Below are positions 4,022 through 33,654 of a stretch of 33,654 bases of DNA, one piece after another. The notes under the pieces were generated by a model. It was not told the origin of the DNA, made no database searches, and saw only the letters and a list, made by a program, of their open reading frames with translations. The translations under genes and the position numbers were made by a program. How positions within the stretch are numbered: position 1 is the first letter of the stretch; every line of letters starts with the position of its first letter. The DNA lies in the NCBI GenBank assembly GCA_018263335.1, contig JADFCY010000022.1:1-33654 (forward strand). Direction: 5' to 3'. The DNA is from Methanolinea sp. Its GTDB lineage: Archaea; Halobacteriota; Methanomicrobia; Methanomicrobiales; Methanospirillaceae.

Positions 4022-4530
4022 CTTTGGCAGGGAGCGGTGAATGGGAAAATTCCGGATTCTTTTTCGTCATAAAGGAAGGTCTCCTGCTTCACTTTCATCT
4101 GTGATATCCCGAATTAAGGCTTTTGGCTCTCTGGTGTGGGCAGGATTGATGAATTGTCTCCATTTTGTGAAGGCGGTCTCCCCCCACACCCCATATGCGA
4201 TGCACGCCGCCTCCCCCGGACATGCCGCGGGGCTACCGCCCTCGACCCGGGGCGACCTTTCAGTCACCAATGGACCATCCTGTAATCGTTGACCGATGTT
4301 CACACGACGTATGAGAAGAGAACGGCGGCGGTTTAGTGACGTAAGTGGCACACAGATATCACACTCGGTTCAATCTCCCCATACGAAACCGCGAGGAGGT
4401 TGATTTTCAGATAAAAATTGATACGCGTAACCTCTCCATGATGGCGTCCAGCCAAACGGTCTCTGCGGTGACGGGCCGAATCTCATATCCTTAAGTTCCA
4501 AGGCAAGGGAAGCCATTGTGAACGGCTCGT
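4022..4530. other. Stretch without a convincing gene
   Basis: Both strands contain short open frames (for example 4041-4292 plus and 4067-4351 minus), but neither has a clear ribosome-binding site nor a recognisable domain. Together with the truncated transposase at 4899, the region looks like decayed DNA between the kinase and the secreted protein gene. Confidence 0.4.
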
Positions 4531-11210: not shown

Positions 11211-11336
11211 GAGACTCCACCTGTTATGTCAGTAATCAGCGGTCATTTGACCGGAACGGGTAGGAGTTATCAGCACGGCCTGCGGTTGTATGGTGAACTC
11301 CATCACCGGGTTCTCATTCTTATTTCTTTTACCGGG

Positions 11337-17729: not shown

Positions 17730-17916
17730 GCAAAAAGAGTGGCCCCATGGTGACTACAAGGTCGCCCGGGTGGGGAGTGAAAGTGTCACTGGCCCGGTGC
17801 TCTCCCGATGCGAAATGGCCACCCGCTCCCCCGCATGGATTAGGCCCTCTCTCTCCCGGCGACCATTCCGGAATGCATAAGAGATGCACGGCGGAACCAC
17901 TCATCCAGGGATAAAA

Positions 17917-19188
17917 ATGACAAGACCGACTCTCCTTCTGCTGCTGCTTGGACTGATCGCAGGAGCGGTATTCCTTGCGGGATGCACGGCCCCCGGGGTC
18001 ACTGAACCCCACGCGACACCCGTTGCCACTGCACCCCCAGTGACTGCGCCCGAAGACCTGGTGTTCCTTACCGAGGACTACCCCCCGCTCAACTACGTGG
18101 AGAACGGGACGATCAAGGGGATATCCGTTGACCTGCTCCGCGGGGTAATCATGCGGATGGGCAAGACCGTCTCCTCCGATCGCATCACGGTCCTCTCGTG
18201 GTCGCAGGCCTACGAGACGGCGCTCTCCCGCAACAACACCGTGGTGTTTGCCACCGTACGGCTACCCGAGCGCGAGCACCTCTTCAAGTGGGCAGGCCCG
18301 CTCGGCTCCGACCGGAAGGTGCTCTTCTCGATGAAGGACAAATCTCCCGTGATCGCCTCTCCCGCTGACCTGGACCGCTACCGGATCGGGGTGGTCAAAG
18401 ACGATTCCGCACACCTCCAGCTCCTGGGGCTCGGAGTGAACGCGTCCCGGATCACCGCCTACCCCACGGTCCGCTCACTCATCTCCGCGATGCAGGATGG
18501 GACGCTCGACCTCTGGTGCTACGGCGAGACTGTCGGGAGGTACCATGCAGGGAAAGTGACCGGCGATCCCAACGCGTTTGCGGTCGTTTACGCGCTCGAA
18601 TACCAGGACCACTACTATGCCTTCAATAAGAACACCCCTGACGAGTTCGTCGCCGCGTTCCAGGCGGCCCTCGACAGCCTCAGGTACGAGCCGGACGAGG
18701 CCGGGATCACCGAGTACCAGCGGATCATGTACCGGTACCTCGGGGTCTCTTGCATGCCGGAGCCGCCCGTGTCTTCTGATCAGGTGGTATCGCTCGTACA
18801 CTATACGGCAGACGCGCTGATGCAGGACGCTCCCGGGACCATCGCGCGGATCAACGCCGGCGAGCACCCGTTATGGGACCGCGAAAACCGGGCCCTCTAT
18901 GTCTTTCTTTATGACACGAACGTGACCATCGTCGCGGAGGCCGACAACCCCCGCCTGATCGGGGTGAACATGAAGGGAAAGACCGATGTCGCCGGGACCC
19001 CGTTCAGGGAACAGATCGTGGAAAAGGCCCTTGCCGAGAGGACTGGCTGGGTTGACTACATCTGGATGATCCCTGACCGAAACGGCGTATATTACAAGTC
19101 GGCGTACTTCAGGCGCGTGGAGGGGAGCGATTCGGAGACCTACATCGTGGCAAGCGGGATGTATACCCCCTGTGGACCGGTGGCGTGA
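17917..19188 (+). CDS. Lipoprotein joining a solute-binding domain (SBP_bac_3) and a Cache domain
   Basis: 423 residues from the ATG giving MTRPTLLLLLLG, preceded by GGGATAAAA. Lipobox LAGC with Cys23. Residues 48-285 are a family-3 periplasmic binding domain (LTEDYPPLNYVENGTIKGISVDLL, FATVRLPEREHLFKWAGPL, DRYRIGVVKDDSA, MQDGTLDLWCYG), the type that binds amino acids or similar small ligands. Residues 300-420 form a single Cache domain (DALMQDAPGTIARINAGEHPLW, NVTIVAEADNPRLIGVNMKGKTD, YIWMIPDRNGVYYKSAYFRR). No permease or ATPase gene is near, so a sensory role is more likely than transport. The last 76 bases before the final codons (19099-19174) recur exactly at 22001-22076; the gene now ends TPCGPVA whereas the downstream copy ends TPCAE, which suggests the original tail was displaced. 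Confidence 0.9.
   Translation: MTRPTLLLLLLGLIAGAVFLAGCTAPGVTEPHATPVATAPPVTAPEDLVFLTEDYPPLNYVENGTIKGISVDLLRGVIMRMGKTVSSDRITVLSWSQAYETALSRNNTVVFATVRLPEREHLFKWAGPLGSDRKVLFSMKDKSPVIASPADLDRYRIGVVKDDSAHLQLLGLGVNASRITAYPTVRSLISAMQDGTLDLWCYGETVGRYHAGKVTGDPNAFAVVYALEYQDHYYAFNKNTPDEFVAAFQAALDSLRYEPDEAGITEYQRIMYRYLGVSCMPEPPVSSDQVVSLVHYTADALMQDAPGTIARINAGEHPLWDRENRALYVFLYDTNVTIVAEADNPRLIGVNMKGKTDVAGTPFREQIVEKALAERTGWVDYIWMIPDRNGVYYKSAYFRRVEGSDSETYIVASGMYTPCGPVA
19099..19174 (+). repeat. 76-bp direct repeat, copy 1 (inside the binding-protein gene)
   Basis: Identical over 76 bases to 22001-22076. It encodes residues SAYFRRVEG to MYTPC of the lipoprotein. Sequence on either side of the two copies differs, so the boundaries are sharp. 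Confidence 0.97.
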
Positions 19189-19263
19189 ACCTTTAAGGTG
19201 GGAATGTATTGTAGCCCGCTGTACCTGCACCATGTCAGGGTACCTGTTCCAGTAAAGGATTGG

Positions 19264-19809
19264 TCAGAAGGTGACTACTTTCGCCAGGTCCAGATCGACG
19301 ACCTTTTTATTTTTTATGAGTGTGAACGGAGACGGGTTCTCTCTGTTGTGGCCGCAGTATGAAAGCGTAACAAATGCCTGCATGTTGCCTGACTTGATCG
19401 CGGTTATTTCGTTCTTTTTCATGGTGATAGCCAGGTTTTCCAGCGTGACTCTCGAATTAACCCTGAACCAGTAGGTTGTCTTCCATATATCGAATGGGCC
19501 GGATTTTACAACGAAATCTACGTGGGGGAAAAATTCAGGCGCCTGTTGCTCGTACCTGGCTTTAATCTCTCGTTCTCCTTCAAGATCCTGTATCGTCACC
19601 TGGACAAGTCCGTTGCTCAGTTCCCGCGATATGCGTGTCGAGAGCTCATTGATCAACTTTTCCCGGGCACCCTTCTCACCGAGCCCCGTCTTGACCATCC
19701 AGATGCCGATCTCCCGGAAATCGTCCTTGTGGCTGTTGTTCACCAGGCCATTGACGGCTTCATCGATCTCTTTTATGTTCTCAACCGGGTTGTTTAGTAC
19801 GAGGTTCAT
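19264..19809 (-). CDS. Cytoplasmic protein of unknown function
   Basis: 181 residues, no signal peptide or membrane segment. An N-terminal helical part (NIKEIDEAVNGLVNNSH, GARKLINEL-like region near 50, STRISRELSNGL) is followed by a beta-rich part (HVDFVVKSGPFDIWKTTYWFRVNSRVT, NEITAIKSGNMQAFVTLSYCGHN). It ends KKVVDLDLAKVVTF. No family recognised. Its ATG overlaps the stop of the PKD protein gene (ATGA), so the two are translationally coupled. Base composition is visibly lower in GC than the flanking genes, and the pair lies between the two 76-bp direct repeats, both signs of acquired DNA. Confidence 0.75.
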   Translation of the reverse strand: MNLVLNNPVENIKEIDEAVNGLVNNSHKDDFREIGIWMVKTGLGEKGAREKLINELSTRISRELSNGLVQVTIQDLEGEREIKARYEQQAPEFFPHVDFVVKSGPFDIWKTTYWFRVNSRVTLENLAITMKKNEITAIKSGNMQAFVTLSYCGHNRENPSPFTLIKNKKVVDLDLAKVVTF

Positions 19810-21800
19810 CTTTCATTCTCCTTTTTCCAGATACCTGATCTGATATCGACCGAGATACCCGAACATTCATCAGTCTTCTTCCCTGGTACGACCGGGCATT
19901 CCGTCCCGCCCCCTACCTCGACATGCACCTCCGGATCGGGGAAACGCCAATCAGGCGGCATTGGGTCTGGTGGAGCGGTCCGTCTAGGCGGCCATAAGTA
20001 GCGCCTGGCAATCATGGCGCCACCAAGGATGATGATAATGGGATAAAGAAAAAAGTCCACCGAGAATTGTGGATCGACCTTGACGGTTGCCGTCGATCTG
20101 TCTGAAGCCCCCTGGGGGTCCGATACAAGGAGCGTGACCTGGTAGGTCCCCTCTCTCTCGTAGGAATGCACGGTCACAATCCCGCTTCCGGACTCCTGAT
20201 CTCCGAAATCCCAGGTGAAGGTGAGGTCCTTGTCGTCAGGATCATGGGATTGTGATCCATCGAGCGTGACCGCAAGGGGTCTTTTCCCCTGCTGTGGTGA
20301 GACCGAGATCACCGCAACAGGAGGCTTATTCCCGACTGTGATGAGTATCTCGTCCCTTTCGGTCGTTCCCTTATCGTCGGTTACTGTGAGTACTGCGGTG
20401 TACGATTTGAGATCCCGGTATATATGGGTTGTAATGGCCGTGTTCTCCCAGTAGCCGTCTCCGAAGTCCCAGTGATAGGAAACAAGTGTGCCATCGGGGT
20501 CATACGAATGCGAACCGTCGAAATTGACCGTGAGCGGCCTGGAGCCGGAAGTAGGGTCGGCGCGTGCGTCAGCAACAGGAGGCGTGTTCTCGGCGTTGAC
20601 AGTAATGGAGGCAGTCCCTGACTGCTGCTCGTTGTCTGTCACCGTCAATCTCACCCTGTATATGCCGGAGCGGTGGTATGTGTGTTCGGATGTGGGTCCC
20701 ATAGCTGAGGTATCATCGCCAAAGTCCCACCGGTACGAGCTGATCGATCCATCCTCGTCATAGGATTGCGTCCCCCTGAATTGCACTGTGAGCGGGGTTT
20801 TCCCTGACATGGGATTGGCATCGATGACGGCATGGGGCGGACTGTTCGTGATCGTAAACGTTGTCTCGGCAGAGTCCAGAGGACCGACGGCGCGTATGGT
20901 ATAACTCCCCGGGGCTGTACCGGCAGGAACCGGGAAATCCACAGTGAAAGATCCCAGGGTGCCACTCCGAGTCATTGGAACGTTGCTCGCTCGTACGATA
21001 CCGTTGAATAAAATAGTCGCCTGAGGAAACTCGACCCCATAAAGGTTGAATGAACTCCCGGTTACCTTGAGTGGGGTGCCTGCATTACCTGATGACGGCG
21101 ACACCACTAAGGTCGGCATATATGCTGTGACAGATGCGGAGTCGGTGTTTCTCCCTGCGGAATTTGAGACTGTGAGAAGGACGGTATAAGTACCTGTGGA
21201 GGAGTACGTGTGCACGGGATTCCGCTGGGTTGAAGTACTCCCATCGCCGAAGTCCCAAAACCACGAAGTCGGAGATCCTGCAGAGTTATCGGTGAAATAC
21301 ACAGTGAGAGGCACCCGGCCCCTGCTGGGGTTCATCGTGAAGTCGGCTGTTGGAAAAGAGGCCACTGTAAACGTAGTGCTGGCTTGCCGACTATATGCGC
21401 TTGCCTGGACGGTATATGTTCCGGGGGAAGTTCCGGGAGGAACCTGGAAAGGGATTCTAAAGGAATTCCACCCAAACGTGCTGCTATAGGGATCCCAGTA
21501 GTTCCACCCGCTTGCAACGATGACACCATTAAAACGAAGCGTGACGGGAGGAGGGAACTCGATATCTCCTCCGTATGCAAACGAGCTTCCCGTCGCAGTA
21601 ACCCATGTTCCTGCCACTCCGGATGACGGTGACACTGAAAGGGTGGCCGCCGCCATTCCCGGAGTAACCGCAAGGCCGGCAAGGAACATCGCAAGAAGCA
21701 CCTCCCAGATGAGAAATCGTCGCAATCCCCCTGATTCGATATTGTGTATCAGATCTGGGACCAGTTCCAGATCCCTCTTTGACCTCCTGTTTCCCCCCAT
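19806..21800 (-). CDS. Membrane-anchored surface protein with IPT and PKD domains
   Basis: 664 residues. A basic N-terminus and signal segment (RRFLIWEVLLAMFLAGLAV) lead to alternating Ig-like domains: IPT-like (about 52-150, VSPSSGVAGTWVTATGSSF), PKD (150-230, WFWDFGDGSTST), IPT-like (232-320, VSPSSGNAGTPLKVTGSSF), then three PKD domains (325-580) each with WDFGD or YxWDFGD and a Y(x)R..G.Y.V.L.V core. A transmembrane segment (FFLYPIIIILGGAMIA, about 583-605) and a Pro-rich tail of about 60 residues follow. The ectodomain would stand on the cell surface for adhesion or as envelope material. Start at the ATG behind GGGAGAG. The next gene overlaps by ATGA, so a cytoplasmic partner touching the tail is possible. 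Confidence 0.92.
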   Translation of the reverse strand: MGGNRRSKRDLELVPDLIHNIESGGLRRFLIWEVLLAMFLAGLAVTPGMAAATLSVSPSSGVAGTWVTATGSSFAYGGDIEFPPPVTLRFNGVIVASGWNYWDPYSSTFGWNSFRIPFQVPPGTSPGTYTVQASAYSRQASTTFTVASFPTADFTMNPSRGRVPLTVYFTDNSAGSPTSWFWDFGDGSTSTQRNPVHTYSSTGTYTVLLTVSNSAGRNTDSASVTAYMPTLVVSPSSGNAGTPLKVTGSSFNLYGVEFPQATILFNGIVRASNVPMTRSGTLGSFTVDFPVPAGTAPGSYTIRAVGPLDSAETTFTITNSPPHAVIDANPMSGKTPLTVQFRGTQSYDEDGSISSYRWDFGDDTSAMGPTSEHTYHRSGIYRVRLTVTDNEQQSGTASITVNAENTPPVADARADPTSGSRPLTVNFDGSHSYDPDGTLVSYHWDFGDGYWENTAITTHIYRDLKSYTAVLTVTDDKGTTERDEILITVGNKPPVAVISVSPQQGKRPLAVTLDGSQSHDPDDKDLTFTWDFGDQESGSGIVTVHSYEREGTYQVTLLVSDPQGASDRSTATVKVDPQFSVDFFLYPIIIILGGAMIARRYLWPPRRTAPPDPMPPDWRFPDPEVHVEVGGGTECPVVPGKKTDECSGISVDIRSGIWKKENER

Positions 21801-21939
21801 ACATCTCTCCCAGGTGACGACCTCATTGCCGGGATTGCAGGAACCAAAGGGATATCACGACCAGCATTTGGATCTCCCATGCGAGATCTCCCGGTCTTGG
21901 AAGTATCTTCTCCTGACAGATGGGGATCTTTCAGGTGGA

Positions 21940-21953
21940 CTATATATTATTAT
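21940..21953 (-). promoter_or_regulatory. Possible TATA box of the PKD two-gene cassette
   Basis: The minus strand reads ATAATAATATATAG. Distance to the ATG at 21800 implies a leader of roughly 115 nt. It lies inside the segment bounded by the 76-bp repeats, so the cassette would bring its own promoter. Confidence 0.45.
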
Positions 21954-22000
21954 GCCATCCGATCTTGAACACCACAATCAGGCGCGACCTTTCTCGTAAA

Positions 22001-22076
22001 TCGGCGTACTTCAGGCGCGTGGAGGGGAGCGATTCGGAGACCTACATCGTGGCAAGCGGGATGTATACCCCCTGTG
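22001..22076 (+). repeat. 76-bp direct repeat, copy 2 (displaced 3' end of the binding-protein gene)
   Basis: Exact copy of 19099-19174. Read in the same frame it continues CAE and stops at TAA, and a T-rich tract follows. It has no start of its own and is a stranded gene end. Confidence 0.97.
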
Positions 22077-22103
22077 CCGAGTAAAGAAACGAAATCCTCT
22101 TTT
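22077..22103 (+). terminator. T-rich tract after the stranded gene end
   Basis: CTCTTTTTTCC lies about 20 bases after the TAA that closes the second 76-bp copy. Archaeal termination uses such U-rich tracts. It was probably the native terminator of the binding-protein gene before the cassette separated them. Confidence 0.4.
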
Positions 22104-22209
22104 TTCCGGATGGATTCCTGCATCCGGGATATTCGCCGCTGACCCCGGAAGCGTTACCCTGATGCATCCTGGCAACGAACAATGATTCGCATATCCGATG
22201 GAGGAGCGC

Positions 22210-22770
22210 ATGGAAAAGAGAACGCTTGGCCCGATGCCGTATATGAGTGTCATGCCCACGGTGCTCGTGGGTGCAAACGTCCTGGGAAAGCCCAACTACA
22301 TGACTGCTGCCTGGGCGACTGTCGCGTGCATGGCGCCGCCGATGGTCTGTGTCGCGATCAACAAGGGACGCTATACCTGGAAGGGGATCGAGGAGAACCG
22401 GACCTTCTCGCTGAATGTCCCCTCCGTATCCCAGGTTGTCGAGACCGACCACTGCGGGCTCGTCTCCGGTGCCCGGGAGGACAAGTCAGCGGTATTCCGA
22501 TCCGTATACGGGGTGCTCGGGACCGCCCCGATGGCCGCAGAGTGCCCGGTCAACGTCGAGTGCGAACTCTTCGAGTCCGTTGACTGCGGGAGCCACGTGC
22601 TGGTCGTCGGGAAGGTCGTGGAGATCCACGCCGCAGAGTCCTGCATCACTGACGGAAAACCTGACATCCGGAAGATCGACCCGATCATCTACGCGCAGTA
22701 CACGTATTACCGCGTGGGGGACGAAGCAGGAGAGGCATTTTCTGCCGGGAAGAAGTACCAAAAGCGTTGA
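22210..22770 (+). CDS. Flavin reductase-like FMN-binding split-barrel protein
   Basis: 186 residues from the ATG giving MEKRTLGPMPYM, which stands five bases after GGAGG; another ATG four codons upstream overlaps that site and is less likely. Family signs are the N-terminal PTVLVGANVLGKPNYMTAAWATVACMAPPMVCVAIN, the TWKGIEENRTFSLNVPS segment where flavin is bound, and EDKSAVFRSVYGVLGTAPMAAECPVNVECEL. This matches flavoredoxin and related flavin reductases of anaerobes (about 180-190 residues), which bind FMN and carry electrons or reduce flavins in the cytoplasm. Its donor and acceptor cannot be told from the context. It lies just beyond the 76-bp copy 2 and has its own ribosome-binding site. 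Confidence 0.9.
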   Translation: MEKRTLGPMPYMSVMPTVLVGANVLGKPNYMTAAWATVACMAPPMVCVAINKGRYTWKGIEENRTFSLNVPSVSQVVETDHCGLVSGAREDKSAVFRSVYGVLGTAPMAAECPVNVECELFESVDCGSHVLVVGKVVEIHAAESCITDGKPDIRKIDPIIYAQYTYYRVGDEAGEAFSAGKKYQKR

Positions 22771-23116: not shown

Positions 23117-23194
23117 TCATGTGGGCCAGCCGTCATTGACGATGAATCTCCCTTCACCCACAATCGAGTCCCTTAGCTCCGGATGAAGTGGCAT
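23117..23194 (-). CDS. Mini-ORF C of the 108-bp array (25 codons), possible small protein
   Basis: Reads MPLHPELRDSIVGEGRFIVN and ends DGWPT. Starts directly after the stop of mini-ORF B (TGAATG). It is shorter because the repeat ends inside it. Coding status is uncertain. Confidence 0.3.
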   Translation of the reverse strand: MPLHPELRDSIVGEGRFIVNDGWPT

Positions 23195-23302
23195 TCATCC
23201 CTGCAGTGTGAGGACTGAGAGGTCTTTCGCGGGCCAGCCGCCGTTGGTAATAAATCTCCCTTCACCGAGGATCGAGTCCCGCAGCCCCGGATGAAGGGGC
23301 AT
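23195..23302 (-). CDS. Mini-ORF B of the 108-bp array (35 codons), possible small protein
   Basis: Begins MPLHPGLRDSILGEGRF and ends KDLSVLTLQG. Its ATG abuts the TGA of mini-ORF A and its TGA abuts the ATG of mini-ORF C. The 36-codon unit keeps the frame in all copies. Differences between units A and B include both silent and amino-acid changing ones, so selection on protein is not proven. Confidence 0.35.
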   Translation of the reverse strand: MPLHPGLRDSILGEGRFITNGGWPAKDLSVLTLQG

Positions 23303-23410
23303 TCATCCCTGCAGTGTGAGGACTAAGAGGGCATTCTCGGGCCAGCCGTCATTGGCAATGAATCTCCCTTCACCGAGGATCGGGCCCCTTAGCCCCGGAT
23401 GAATGGGCAT
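23303..23410 (-). CDS. Mini-ORF A of the 108-bp array (35 codons), possible small protein
   Basis: Begins MPIHPGLRGPILGEGRF and ends ENALLVLTLQG. It starts right after the TAA of the leading frame at 23411-23497, which ends in the same LSVLTLQG motif. Function unknown. Confidence 0.35.
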   Translation of the reverse strand: MPIHPGLRGPILGEGRFIANDGWPENALLVLTLQG

Positions 23411-23497
23411 TTATCCCTGCAGGGTGAGGACAGAGAGGTCGTCCCAGGAGGTCTCTCCTGGACCCGGCACTAAAGAGGACCCCGCACTCCTGATCAT
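23411..23497 (-). CDS. Leading small frame of the mini-ORF array
   Basis: 28 codons from an ATG (MIRSAGSSLVPGPGE) ending WDDLSVLTLQG; the frame stays open upstream to a GTG near 23567. Only its last dozen residues match the repeat. It could be the parent gene end from which the tandem copies arose. Confidence 0.25.
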   Translation of the reverse strand: MIRSAGSSLVPGPGETSWDDLSVLTLQG

Positions 23498-30195: not shown

Positions 30196-33100
30196 GTGAA
30201 AAAATATGTTATTCTTACCCTGTTTTTCTTGCTGATTGTCGTCTTATCAGCACAGGTATCCGCTGAAGGGCAGGCCTGGAAATTCCGCTCCGACCTCTCC
30301 AATGCCGGAGTCTACGACGATGGAGGGACGAGGCCTGAATGTGAGCTGCTCTGGAATTTTCCCACTGGAGATGACGTGGATTCCAGCGCCGCAGTCGTTG
30401 ACGGGGTTGTCTATATAGGCGGACATGCATTCGACGCACGAACAGGGGAACGCCTCTGGTGGTTCAGGGAGGACTTCATCGAAGGATCCAGCCCCGCGGT
30501 TGTCGATGGCGTCGTCTATATCGGCAGCGAGGCTGGCAGGCTCTATGCATTGGACGCAGAGACCGGAACCGCCATGTGGAACTTCACGACGGGAGCAGGT
30601 ATCCACTCGAGCCCCGCGGTTGCAGACGGGATCGTCTACTTCGGCAGCCAGGATCACCACGTGTACGCGCTTGACGCGGGCACAGGGGAATTGCGCTGGA
30701 ACTATACCACGGGAGAGGCGGTATTCTCGAGCCCCGCAGTTGTCGACGGCGTGGTATACATCGGAAGCTGCGACAAGAACGTCTACGCGCTTGATGCCCA
30801 ATCCGGTGAACTTGTCTGGAACTATACCACGGGAGGAATGGTCTATTCCAGTCCCGCGGTCGTTGACGGGCAGGTCTATATCGGGAGTTTCGATGGCCTC
30901 CTCTACGTCCTCCATGCGGACACGGGAGAGTTATCCTGGAGTTATGATGCAGGAGGGGCCATTTACTCGAGCCCCGCGGTAGCGGACGGGGTCGTCTATT
31001 TCGGGTGCAGGAACGGGTTCCTGTACGCACTCAATACCGAAGTCCCGGGTCACCGGTGGAGCCATCACGCGGGAAAGACTGTCGATTCAAGCCCGGCGGT
31101 GGCAAACGGAGTCGTGTACTTCACGGGGAAGGATGACCCCGGAGGGAGCGGTCTTTACGCACTCGATGCCGCAACAGGGGAACGCCTCTGGAAGTTCAAT
31201 ACCACGTTTGGAACGCGGTCGAGCCCCGCGGTTGCTGACGGAACGGTGTATTTTGGCAGTAGCGACAGGGGCAGCGTCTTTGCGATCGGCGCGTCCCCCG
31301 GAGCCCCTGTGCCATACGACGACTTCGATGACAATGCATGCGATGATACCCTCTGGAACGTCATCCAGTCCGGGGGTCCGTATGCCGATGAGACGAACCA
31401 GCGGCTGGAGATCACCCTCCCGGCCGATTCATCCGGCGACAACTTCTATGCAGGGTATTCGAGCACGCACGTCCTCCGGGGGGATTTTGATGTCCAGGTC
31501 GACTACCGGCTCCTCACCTGGCCAGAGAATAACGGCGTGAGGATGGGACTCTGGATCGAGAAGAACCCTTATACTTACACTGTCGAGCGTGCAAGTTACG
31601 GGACCTCGGATGGTTTTACCGCAGGGGACCACTACACGACGAATTTTGCGGACTCGATCCTCCTCTCCGCGACAGGCGATACACAAGGAACACTCCGTCT
31701 GGTGCGGACAGGATCCCTCTTTGAGGGGTATTACCAGAACACAACTTCCGGTGAATGGCAACTCTCGCAGAGCCGCCAGGTCAACACCGTGTCTGCAGGG
31801 GAAGTGAGGTTCATGCTGAAGGCGTGGAGTCATGACTATGCCTTTTCGGACGAACCGGTAGTCGTTGCATTCGACAATTTCGTAATCAACAAGGGGACAG
31901 TCGTCCCCCCAGGGATCACTCCCCCGGCGGCAGTCACCGGCCTTGCGAACGCGACCTTCCAGCCAAACCTCATTCGCTGGGCCTGGAATGACCCGGGTGA
32001 TCCAGACTTCGACCACGTCATGGTCTACCTCGACGGGGTGTTCCAGACGAACGTGACGAAGGGTGTGCAGGCCTGGACCGCAAAGGGCCTCCTCCCCTCG
32101 ACTGCCTATACCATCGGGACACGGACTGTCGGGGAAAGTGGTACGATCAACGGGACCTGGGTGAACCATACGGCCACGACGAGCAGCCTTCTGGTCACGC
32201 ACCTCGACCCGCCTGACACCATCGCGGGGAGTCCAGGGTTTACCCTTGATATCTTCGGTTCGGTGTTTAGCGCAGGCTCCCGTGTTCTCTGGAACGGCGA
32301 TGAACAGCCAACGCAGTGTTACGATGCGGGCCACCTCTCGATCACGGTATCGTCCGACATGATCATCCGGCCGGCTGCCGTGAACATCACGGTCAGTGAC
32401 CACACGACAGGCGAGGTCTCCAACCCGGTGATGTTTCGCGTAAGAGACCCATCCTCCGGCGACCGGGCCTGGAAGTTCCGGTCCGACTCCTCCAATTCTG
32501 GGGTCTACGATGACGGCGGGACGAGGCCCGGGAACGAACTGCTCTGGAAGTACATGACGGAGAGCTATTACGGCTCCAGCCCGGCAGTGGTGGATAGGGT
32601 CGTCTATGTCTGCGGGATATACGATATCAACGCCATAGACGCGCTCACGGGGAGACTCCTTTGGAGTTCTCCTGACGGAGGGGGGAGGTCCAGCCCCGCG
32701 GTCGCAGACAATGTCGTCTACGTGGGGAGCAACGACTACAACATCTCCGCATTTGACGCTTCCACGGGAGCTCTCCTCTGGAAATTCCGGACCGGGTCAG
32801 TCGTGTATTCGAGCCCTGCAGTGGCCGACGGCATCGTGTATGCCGGGAGCTGGGACTCCAATCTTTATGCGCTCGATGCGTCTACCGGAACACTTCTCTG
32901 GAAGTACCTGACAGGGGCGGAAGTGAGGTCGAGCCCCGCGGTTGCGGACGGGGTCGTCTATTTCGGGAGCGACGATTACAGAGTCTACGCACTCGATGCA
33001 CACACGGGGGCCCTGCTCTGGAATTACACCACGGGCGGGGCATTGTCCCATTCCAGTCCCGCGGTTTCACAGGGTGTCGTGTACATCCAGAGCAATGACG

Positions 33101-33654
33101 GCAATCTCTATGCGCTTGACGCGTCCACCGGAAACGTCCTCTGGACCTATCCTGTGAGGGGGTGGGGCGACTCCTGCCCTGCAGTGGCCGACGGCGTGGT
33201 CTACATCGGGAGCGATGACGGCAATCTCTATGCCCTCGATGCAGTAACCGGGGATCTCATCTGGAAGTATGCAACAGGGAACCTGGTTCGGTCAAGCCCC
33301 TCGGTGGCAAACGGTGTTGTGTATATCGGGAACTCCGGGGGAACGGTCTACGCGCTCGATGCAGACACGGGGACGGTCCTCTGGACGTATGATACCAATG
33401 AAGGGGGATTTTCGAGCCCTGCCATTGCACATGGGGTCCTGTATATCCAGGGGTTGAACGGGTACCTCTACGCGCTCACCACGTTGCCGGACGAACCCCC
33501 TGCCAGCGTGACCGGCGCATACCCGACGACGATCAACGGGGCAGAGATCACCTGGGCCTGGACCGATCCAGGAACGCTCGGGTTCTCCCACGTCATGGTC
33601 TATCTGGACGGCGTGTTCCAGGAGAATGTGGCAGCCGGGGAAGAGACCTGGACT
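30196..33654 (+). CDS. Very large secreted PQQ-repeat (BamB-like) beta-propeller protein, 3' end outside the window
   Basis: 1153 codons visible, frame still open at the window edge. GTG start behind GGTGG. Signal peptide VKKYVILTLFFLLIVVLSAQVSA. Residues 27-370 hold eight repeats of the type SSPAV.DG.VYIGS...(L/V)YALDA.TG...W, an eight-bladed PQQ-like propeller without evident cofactor ligands. Residues 374-575 resemble a DUF1349/concanavalin-like domain (DDFDDNACDDTLWNVIQSGG). A fibronectin-III-like domain (576-660, IRWAWNDPGD, HVMVYLDGVFQ) and an IPT-like domain (666-755) follow. At 756 the whole plan restarts (AWKFRSDSSNSGVYDDGG) with eight more propeller repeats and, from about 1103, another fibronectin-III-like domain ending at the edge. 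So the protein is at least a tandem duplication of a ~730-residue module. Probably a cell-surface binding or adhesion protein. Confidence 0.93.
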   Translation, partial: MKKYVILTLFFLLIVVLSAQVSAEGQAWKFRSDLSNAGVYDDGGTRPECELLWNFPTGDDVDSSAAVVDGVVYIGGHAFDARTGERLWWFREDFIEGSSPAVVDGVVYIGSEAGRLYALDAETGTAMWNFTTGAGIHSSPAVADGIVYFGSQDHHVYALDAGTGELRWNYTTGEAVFSSPAVVDGVVYIGSCDKNVYALDAQSGELVWNYTTGGMVYSSPAVVDGQVYIGSFDGLLYVLHADTGELSWSYDAGGAIYSSPAVADGVVYFGCRNGFLYALNTEVPGHRWSHHAGKTVDSSPAVANGVVYFTGKDDPGGSGLYALDAATGERLWKFNTTFGTRSSPAVADGTVYFGSSDRGSVFAIGASPGAPVPYDDFDDNACDDTLWNVIQSGGPYADETNQRLEITLPADSSGDNFYAGYSSTHVLRGDFDVQVDYRLLTWPENNGVRMGLWIEKNPYTYTVERASYGTSDGFTAGDHYTTNFADSILLSATGDTQGTLRLVRTGSLFEGYYQNTTSGEWQLSQSRQVNTVSAGEVRFMLKAWSHDYAFSDEPVVVAFDNFVINKGTVVPPGITPPAAVTGLANATFQPNLIRWAWNDPGDPDFDHVMVYLDGVFQTNVTKGVQAWTAKGLLPSTAYTIGTRTVGESGTINGTWVNHTATTSSLLVTHLDPPDTIAGSPGFTLDIFGSVFSAGSRVLWNGDEQPTQCYDAGHLSITVSSDMIIRPAAVNITVSDHTTGEVSNPVMFRVRDPSSGDRAWKFRSDSSNSGVYDDGGTRPGNELLWKYMTESYYGSSPAVVDRVVYVCGIYDINAIDALTGRLLWSSPDGGGRSSPAVADNVVYVGSNDYNISAFDASTGALLWKFRTGSVVYSSPAVADGIVYAGSWDSNLYALDASTGTLLWKYLTGAEVRSSPAVADGVVYFGSDDYRVYALDAHTGALLWNYTTGGALSHSSPAVSQGVVYIQSNDGNLYALDASTGNVLWTYPVRGWGDSCPAVADGVVYIGSDDGNLYALDAVTGDLIWKYATGNLVRSSPSVANGVVYIGNSGGTVYALDADTGTVLWTYDTNEGGFSSPAIAHGVLYIQGLNGYLYALTTLPDEPPASVTGAYPTTINGAEITWAWTDPGTLGFSHVMVYLDGVFQENVAAGEETWT

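Follow-up and report, generated by a model that had tools for sequence, protein, structure and literature searches.

A two-gene insertion between 76-bp copies of a gene end in Methanolinea sp., most likely a product of ordinary recombination

In the genome of Methanolinea sp., a cassette of two genes lies between two identical copies of the 3' end of a binding-protein gene. Comparison with sister species indicated that DNA has really been inserted here and that the original gene end has been displaced, and we consider that the insertion most likely arose by ordinary recombination and is not a new kind of element.

The window, i.e., the whole stretch of DNA that was analyzed (33,654 nucleotides), is the entire contig C14 of a 2.03-Mb draft genome consisting of 47 contigs (G000). 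The comparison genomes were taken as one per species, and the close relatives among them are mostly registered as Methanolinea sp. or Methanoregulaceae archaeon. In contig C41 of G000 (2246 bases), the first and last 400 bases contain only N. The features of the locus are summarized in Table 1.

Table 1. Coordinates of the features at the insertion locus (positions in the window)
Feature	Position	Strand	Basis
Binding-protein gene, 434 aa, SBP_bac_3 and Cache domain, now GPVA-tailed	17884..19188	+	ORF and domain search
Direct repeat of 76 bp, near copy; covers the conserved gene 3' end up to and including TPC	19099..19174	+	Repeat search
Alternative tail, GPVA-stop and 3' flank	19175..19237	+	Similarity to the same gene in G012 (UBA11423)
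Cassette gene 2, encoding 181 aa with no known family; 4-nt overlap with the PKD gene	19264..19809	-	ORF, family searches
Cassette gene 1: 664-aa PKD-domain surface protein with putative signal peptide and C-terminal membrane anchor	19806..21800	-	Domains; signal and anchor read from sequence
Region 5' of the PKD gene, containing a TATA-like stretch (AATATATAG) and bounded on the outside by the right junction	21801..22000	-	Sequence only
Direct repeat of 76 bp, far copy; the original end of the gene, displaced and lacking a start codon	22001..22076	+	Repeat search
Original tail (AE-stop), terminator-like T tract and hairpin	22077..22130	+	Collinear with the empty sites of G001 and G007
Flavin reductase-like gene flanking the empty site on the right	22198..22770	+	Domain search, comparison

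The duplicated gene end and its two tails

A direct-repeat search of the window confirmed that the two copies are identical over 76 nt, in direct orientation and at a spacing of 2902, as claimed in a preliminary description of this DNA. The word "perfect" used there holds for the 76 nt but depends on the stopping point, because the wider repeat block (19096–19174 and 21998–22076) covers 79 nt with a single mismatch. The borders of the 76-bp block differ (on the left, AAG at the near copy vs. AAA at the far copy; on the right, G vs. C), and the flanks diverge immediately, continuing as GACC behind the near copy and as CCGA behind the far copy. The near copy forms the end of the binding-protein ORF and reads TPC-GPVA-stop; the far copy reads TPC-AE-stop and is followed by a T-rich tract and a hairpin (CCGGATG...CATCCGG), so both endings were as first described. 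The chance expectation for an exact pair of 76-mers in 33.6 kb is ~1e-36, and a chance origin is ruled out. A screen of 1.14 Mb of loci for exact non-tandem direct repeats with their copies ≥ 300 bp apart gave no further pair of ≥ 50 bp; the longest others were 49 and 42 bp.

The binding protein is lipoprotein-like, and its gene has orthologues in the relatives with 72–88% DNA identity. Across 13 relatives, the tails that follow the conserved Cys vary in both length and sequence (GPVA, AA, DA, KSA, EAGA, SPEE, and others). The 76-bp block stops on the right at the point where these tails diverge, just past the Cys codon. The tail, 2–4 residues in length, is apparently neutral or dispensable. 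Tails are hypervariable in all the relatives, and GPVA is not unique: the same gene in G012 ends in GPVA too, with 22 identical nt extending through the stop codon and four bases beyond it, of which the first 18 nt of the segment 19175..19237 form part. Past the identical tail, the similarity between G000 and G012 is weak for ~45 nt (6 of 500 shuffles gave an equally good anchored extension). The distances calculated over six segments group G012 with G001, with G000 next and G007 outside, so the distribution of the GPVA tail does not simply match the species tree.

The 76-bp segment differs at 12–14 positions from its counterparts in G001, G007, and G012, vs. no difference between the two copies. 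For a duplication dating back to those splits, the probability of zero differences over 76 bp would be ~6e-6 without conversion. These counts point to a duplication that is recent or recently homogenized by conversion, in agreement with the initial proposal of a recent event or gene conversion. As both copies are the species' own version, either the last donor would have belonged to the same species or both copies would have come from the recipient.

Empty sites and other occupants in related species

The preliminary description suggested a search for the empty site in relatives, and it was found in two sister species, G001 (MVQD01000086) and G007 (JAKPPB010000056). Each has a single gene end, reading CAA-stop in G001 and CDA-stop in G007, followed directly by sequence that matches the window from position 22077 and then by the flavin reductase gene. 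Relative to these species, therefore, positions 19175–22000 plus one copy of the repeat constitute an insertion. The tail and terminator-like sequence behind the far copy (22077–22130) are collinear with the empty sites, and the earlier view that the original 3' end had been pushed away is supported. Downstream of the flavin reductase gene, and before a small membrane-protein gene, a 108-nt unit containing inverted repeats occurs three times in tandem (84% identity) at positions 23123–23446, a region that G001 and G007 lack.

Other cargo was found at the same spot in two further species. In G012, the GPVA-tailed gene is followed by an unrelated gene of 251 aa, the original tail and terminator are missing, and no second copy of the gene end was found at the binding-protein locus. 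The 251-aa protein (L027, 3910–4665, minus strand) matched no Pfam family and has relatives in only three others of the 81 genomes searched. In G003, a different 3.5 kb lies between the same two genes, with a deaminase, DUF3795, DUF1697, and other ORFs. At none of 13 related loci was a second gene end, decayed or not, detected downstream of the binding-protein gene. The spot behind the binding-protein gene therefore takes up cargo repeatedly, but without a common footprint. Because G012 has the GPVA tail at this gene but carries different cargo and lacks the repeat, this tail pre-exists as an alternative end of the gene. The suggestion that an integrative element brought the replacement tail with it is therefore weakly supported.

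Elsewhere in the window, positions 4113–4399 have many scattered matches (~75–80% identity) in G007, G012, and other relatives and represent a dispersed repeat of the genus, and positions 30300–33500 contain many repeats of ~120 nt within apparent beta-propeller (PQQ-type) surface-protein genes.

The two-gene cassette

The cassette contains two ORFs only. A domain search assigned the 664-aa protein to the PKD/IPT type, and no match to the 181-aa protein was found in Pfam, NCBIfam, PHROG, or PADLOC. No recombinase, integrase, or transposase was found among the ORFs or in the family searches, which agrees with the original statement that no integrase lies inside. The G+C content of the cassette is 0.53, vs. 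0.57–0.62 in the neighbors, and its GC3 is 0.59–0.64, vs. 0.73–0.80.

Homologues of the PKD protein were detected in G002 (59%), G048 (57%), and G023 (37%), and in all three the PKD and 181-aa genes are adjacent, at sites unrelated to this one; a repeat search found no direct repeats of at least 30 bp around these operons. A search of 81 genomes from the order found the 181-aa family in 13 of them. The operon is conserved (window 19264–21800; loci L033, L034, and L035), and its PKD/IPT protein has a conserved, SVDIRSGI-like cytosolic tail. In its distribution, the cassette behaves as a chromosomal accessory operon that is patchily inherited in the order. From the domain plan, we would guess that it encodes a cell-surface recognition protein and a cytosolic partner.

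Several other identities were rejected. The island is single copy in the genome apart from a 58-bp PKD match, so an origin as a duplicate of another locus in this genome was rejected. No relatives of the cassette genes were found in viral contigs, phages, or plasmids, which argues against a viral or plasmid origin, and an anti-phage defense cassette was rejected because there was no PADLOC match. A transposon or casposon target duplication was rejected because there are no terminal inverted repeats at 19175/22000 and no transposase or casposase inside. Similarly, no tRNA or RNA element lies at the junction: ARAGORN detected no tRNA in the window, and the sole Rfam match is a distant fluoride riboswitch (11254–11316, minus strand), which scores well over the Rfam gathering threshold.

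Origin of the insertion

The explanation that we favor, with about even confidence, is recombination through the gene end, either by a single Campbell-type crossover or by homology-assisted end joining. It is favored because of the empty sites, the GPVA tail in G012, the point at which the tails diverge, the identity of the copies, the lack of a recombinase, and the repeat-free operons elsewhere. Both partner alleles share homology over the duplicated segment, which stops where their sequences part; a right edge at this natural point of divergence fits recombination through shared homology, and no integration-specific signal is needed.

In this recombination, the recipient chromosome would have carried the short-tailed gene (CAE-stop) with the flavin reductase gene next to it, and would have recombined once with incoming DNA consisting of the terminal segment of the gene, a GPVA-type tail, and the two-gene cassette. 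The incoming DNA would have been either a circle, inserted by one crossover inside the shared segment, or a linear piece, anchored there by homology and joined illegitimately at its other end within the same gene end. The product would have the order gene, 76 bp, GPVA, cassette, 76 bp, CAE, with the repeat as the footprint of the event. The binding-protein gene would be kept intact with a different tail, and its old end and terminator would have moved behind the cassette. A RadA-type loop-out between the copies would regenerate the empty site exactly. The crossover, its direction, and a donor of the same species are reconstructed here from sequence comparison. A point against a single crossover is that, in most of the organisms studied, a homology of 76 bp would be short for recombination to be efficient.

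A comparable arrangement is known from Escherichia coli, in which, when one-ended insertion was selected, 56 of 60 recombinants had duplications of the gene end (Goin and Petit, PMC3240628). In the 14 sequenced recombinants the duplications were 109–950 bp long, and the recombinants were read as single crossovers with circles that lacked part of their homology (PMC3240628). As in that case of Campbell-type or homology-facilitated illegitimate recombination, a foreign segment here lies between direct duplicates of a homologous gene end, the empty site is restorable, and a recombinase is not required; the difference is that those duplications of 109–950 bp arose in laboratory E. coli, whereas this one is 76 bp long, belongs to a wild archaeon, and is interpreted from its sequence. 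The displacement of 3' ends at T6SS effector and Rhs loci (PMC5361080) is also similar, in that a homology-anchored module shifts the former gene end downstream, where it is left as an orphan. However, whole toxin domains behind a constant 5' part are exchanged at those loci, as opposed to a short, apparently neutral tail of 2–4 residues.

The main and serious rival, to which we give a distinctly lower but still appreciable probability, is site-specific integration, in which a tyrosine recombinase supplied in trans would have placed a small element in the gene's 3' end, with the copies as its attL and attR and GPVA as the replacement end. It stays serious because archaeal elements use the 3' ends of protein genes and the genome has three tyrosine recombinase genes (PF00589), all on other contigs. 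Of 68 thaumarchaeal elements, 14 were integrated at protein-gene 3' ends (PMC6563490), so a protein gene is not unusual as an integration site in archaea, and one of these elements replaces 8 nt including the stop codon (PMC6563490). The anatomy of the locus fits att sites: the gene regains an end with a new tail, the old end is displaced, identical direct repeats lie at both ends with one in the end of the host gene, and the empty sites in G001 and G007 have a single copy. The locus thus resembles protein-gene 3'-end elements such as NitEve-E2, in which the stop and last codons are replaced and direct repeats lie at both ends (PMC6563490). However, the elements in that survey are viruses, casposons, and other mobile elements with att sites mostly < 26 bp, and crenarchaeal att sites are 29–69 bp (PMC6563490), whereas here only two non-mobility genes and a longer repeat of 76 bp are present.

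Several further results argue against this rival. Neither the cassette nor the cargo in G012 contains a recombinase, no inverted repeats of at least 7 bp were found around the near junction, and no related element and no viral or plasmid relatives of the cassette genes were found; the same operon occurs at other loci without att-like repeats of at least 30 bp. The cargo behind the GPVA tail differs between G000 and G012, which could mean that G012, whose sister G001 is empty, carries a second element of the same family at this site, but G012 lacks a second copy and has lost its original tail. The preliminary designation of an integrative element is therefore weakly supported, the content being an accessory operon. 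The integrase in trans that it envisaged has candidates in the three PF00589 genes; around the integrase loci of the genome itself, only a tandem repeat was found in a search for direct repeats.

An old insertion followed by gene conversion would fit almost as well as the favored crossover, although we consider the full sequence of events rather improbable. The insertion with GPVA would be older than the split between G000 and G012, G001 would have lost it precisely, G012 would have lost the right copy and swapped its cargo, and the copies in G000 would have been homogenized recently. The GPVA tail and ~60 nt of flank are common to G000 and G012 even though the distances pair G012 with G001, and direct copies 2.9 kb apart are able to convert. 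However, this history requires a precise loss, a partial loss with a cargo swap, and a conversion, the last being needed in view of the very low chance of zero differences given above. There is also a slim chance that an integrase-free family of GPVA-marked "tail cassettes" repeatedly enters the 3' end of this gene in Methanolinea-type methanogens with the help of a chromosomal tyrosine recombinase in trans.

An assembly artefact, or a mixture of strains joined at the repeat, is unlikely and has the smallest probability that we assign. The genome is a draft, and several pairs of contig ends share exactly 77 bases, which implies a k = 77 graph assembly in which the repeat length is k − 1, an awkward coincidence. 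With 77-base nodes, however, a 76-bp repeat is no branch point, and the contig needs real 78-mers of the form A-76-C and G-76-G. Stitching of contig ends predicts an identity of 77 bases with G in front, whereas 76 were observed and the far copy is preceded by A, so contig stitching was rejected; the window is also free of N.

Under the favored recombination through the shared gene end, this locus would be a natural case showing that accessory surface-protein operons can enter an archaeal chromosome without mobility genes. The conserved gene end would provide the landing homology, the host gene would stay intact, and the footprint would make the insertion precisely reversible. A long repeat at a gene end does not, then, necessarily imply an integrase.
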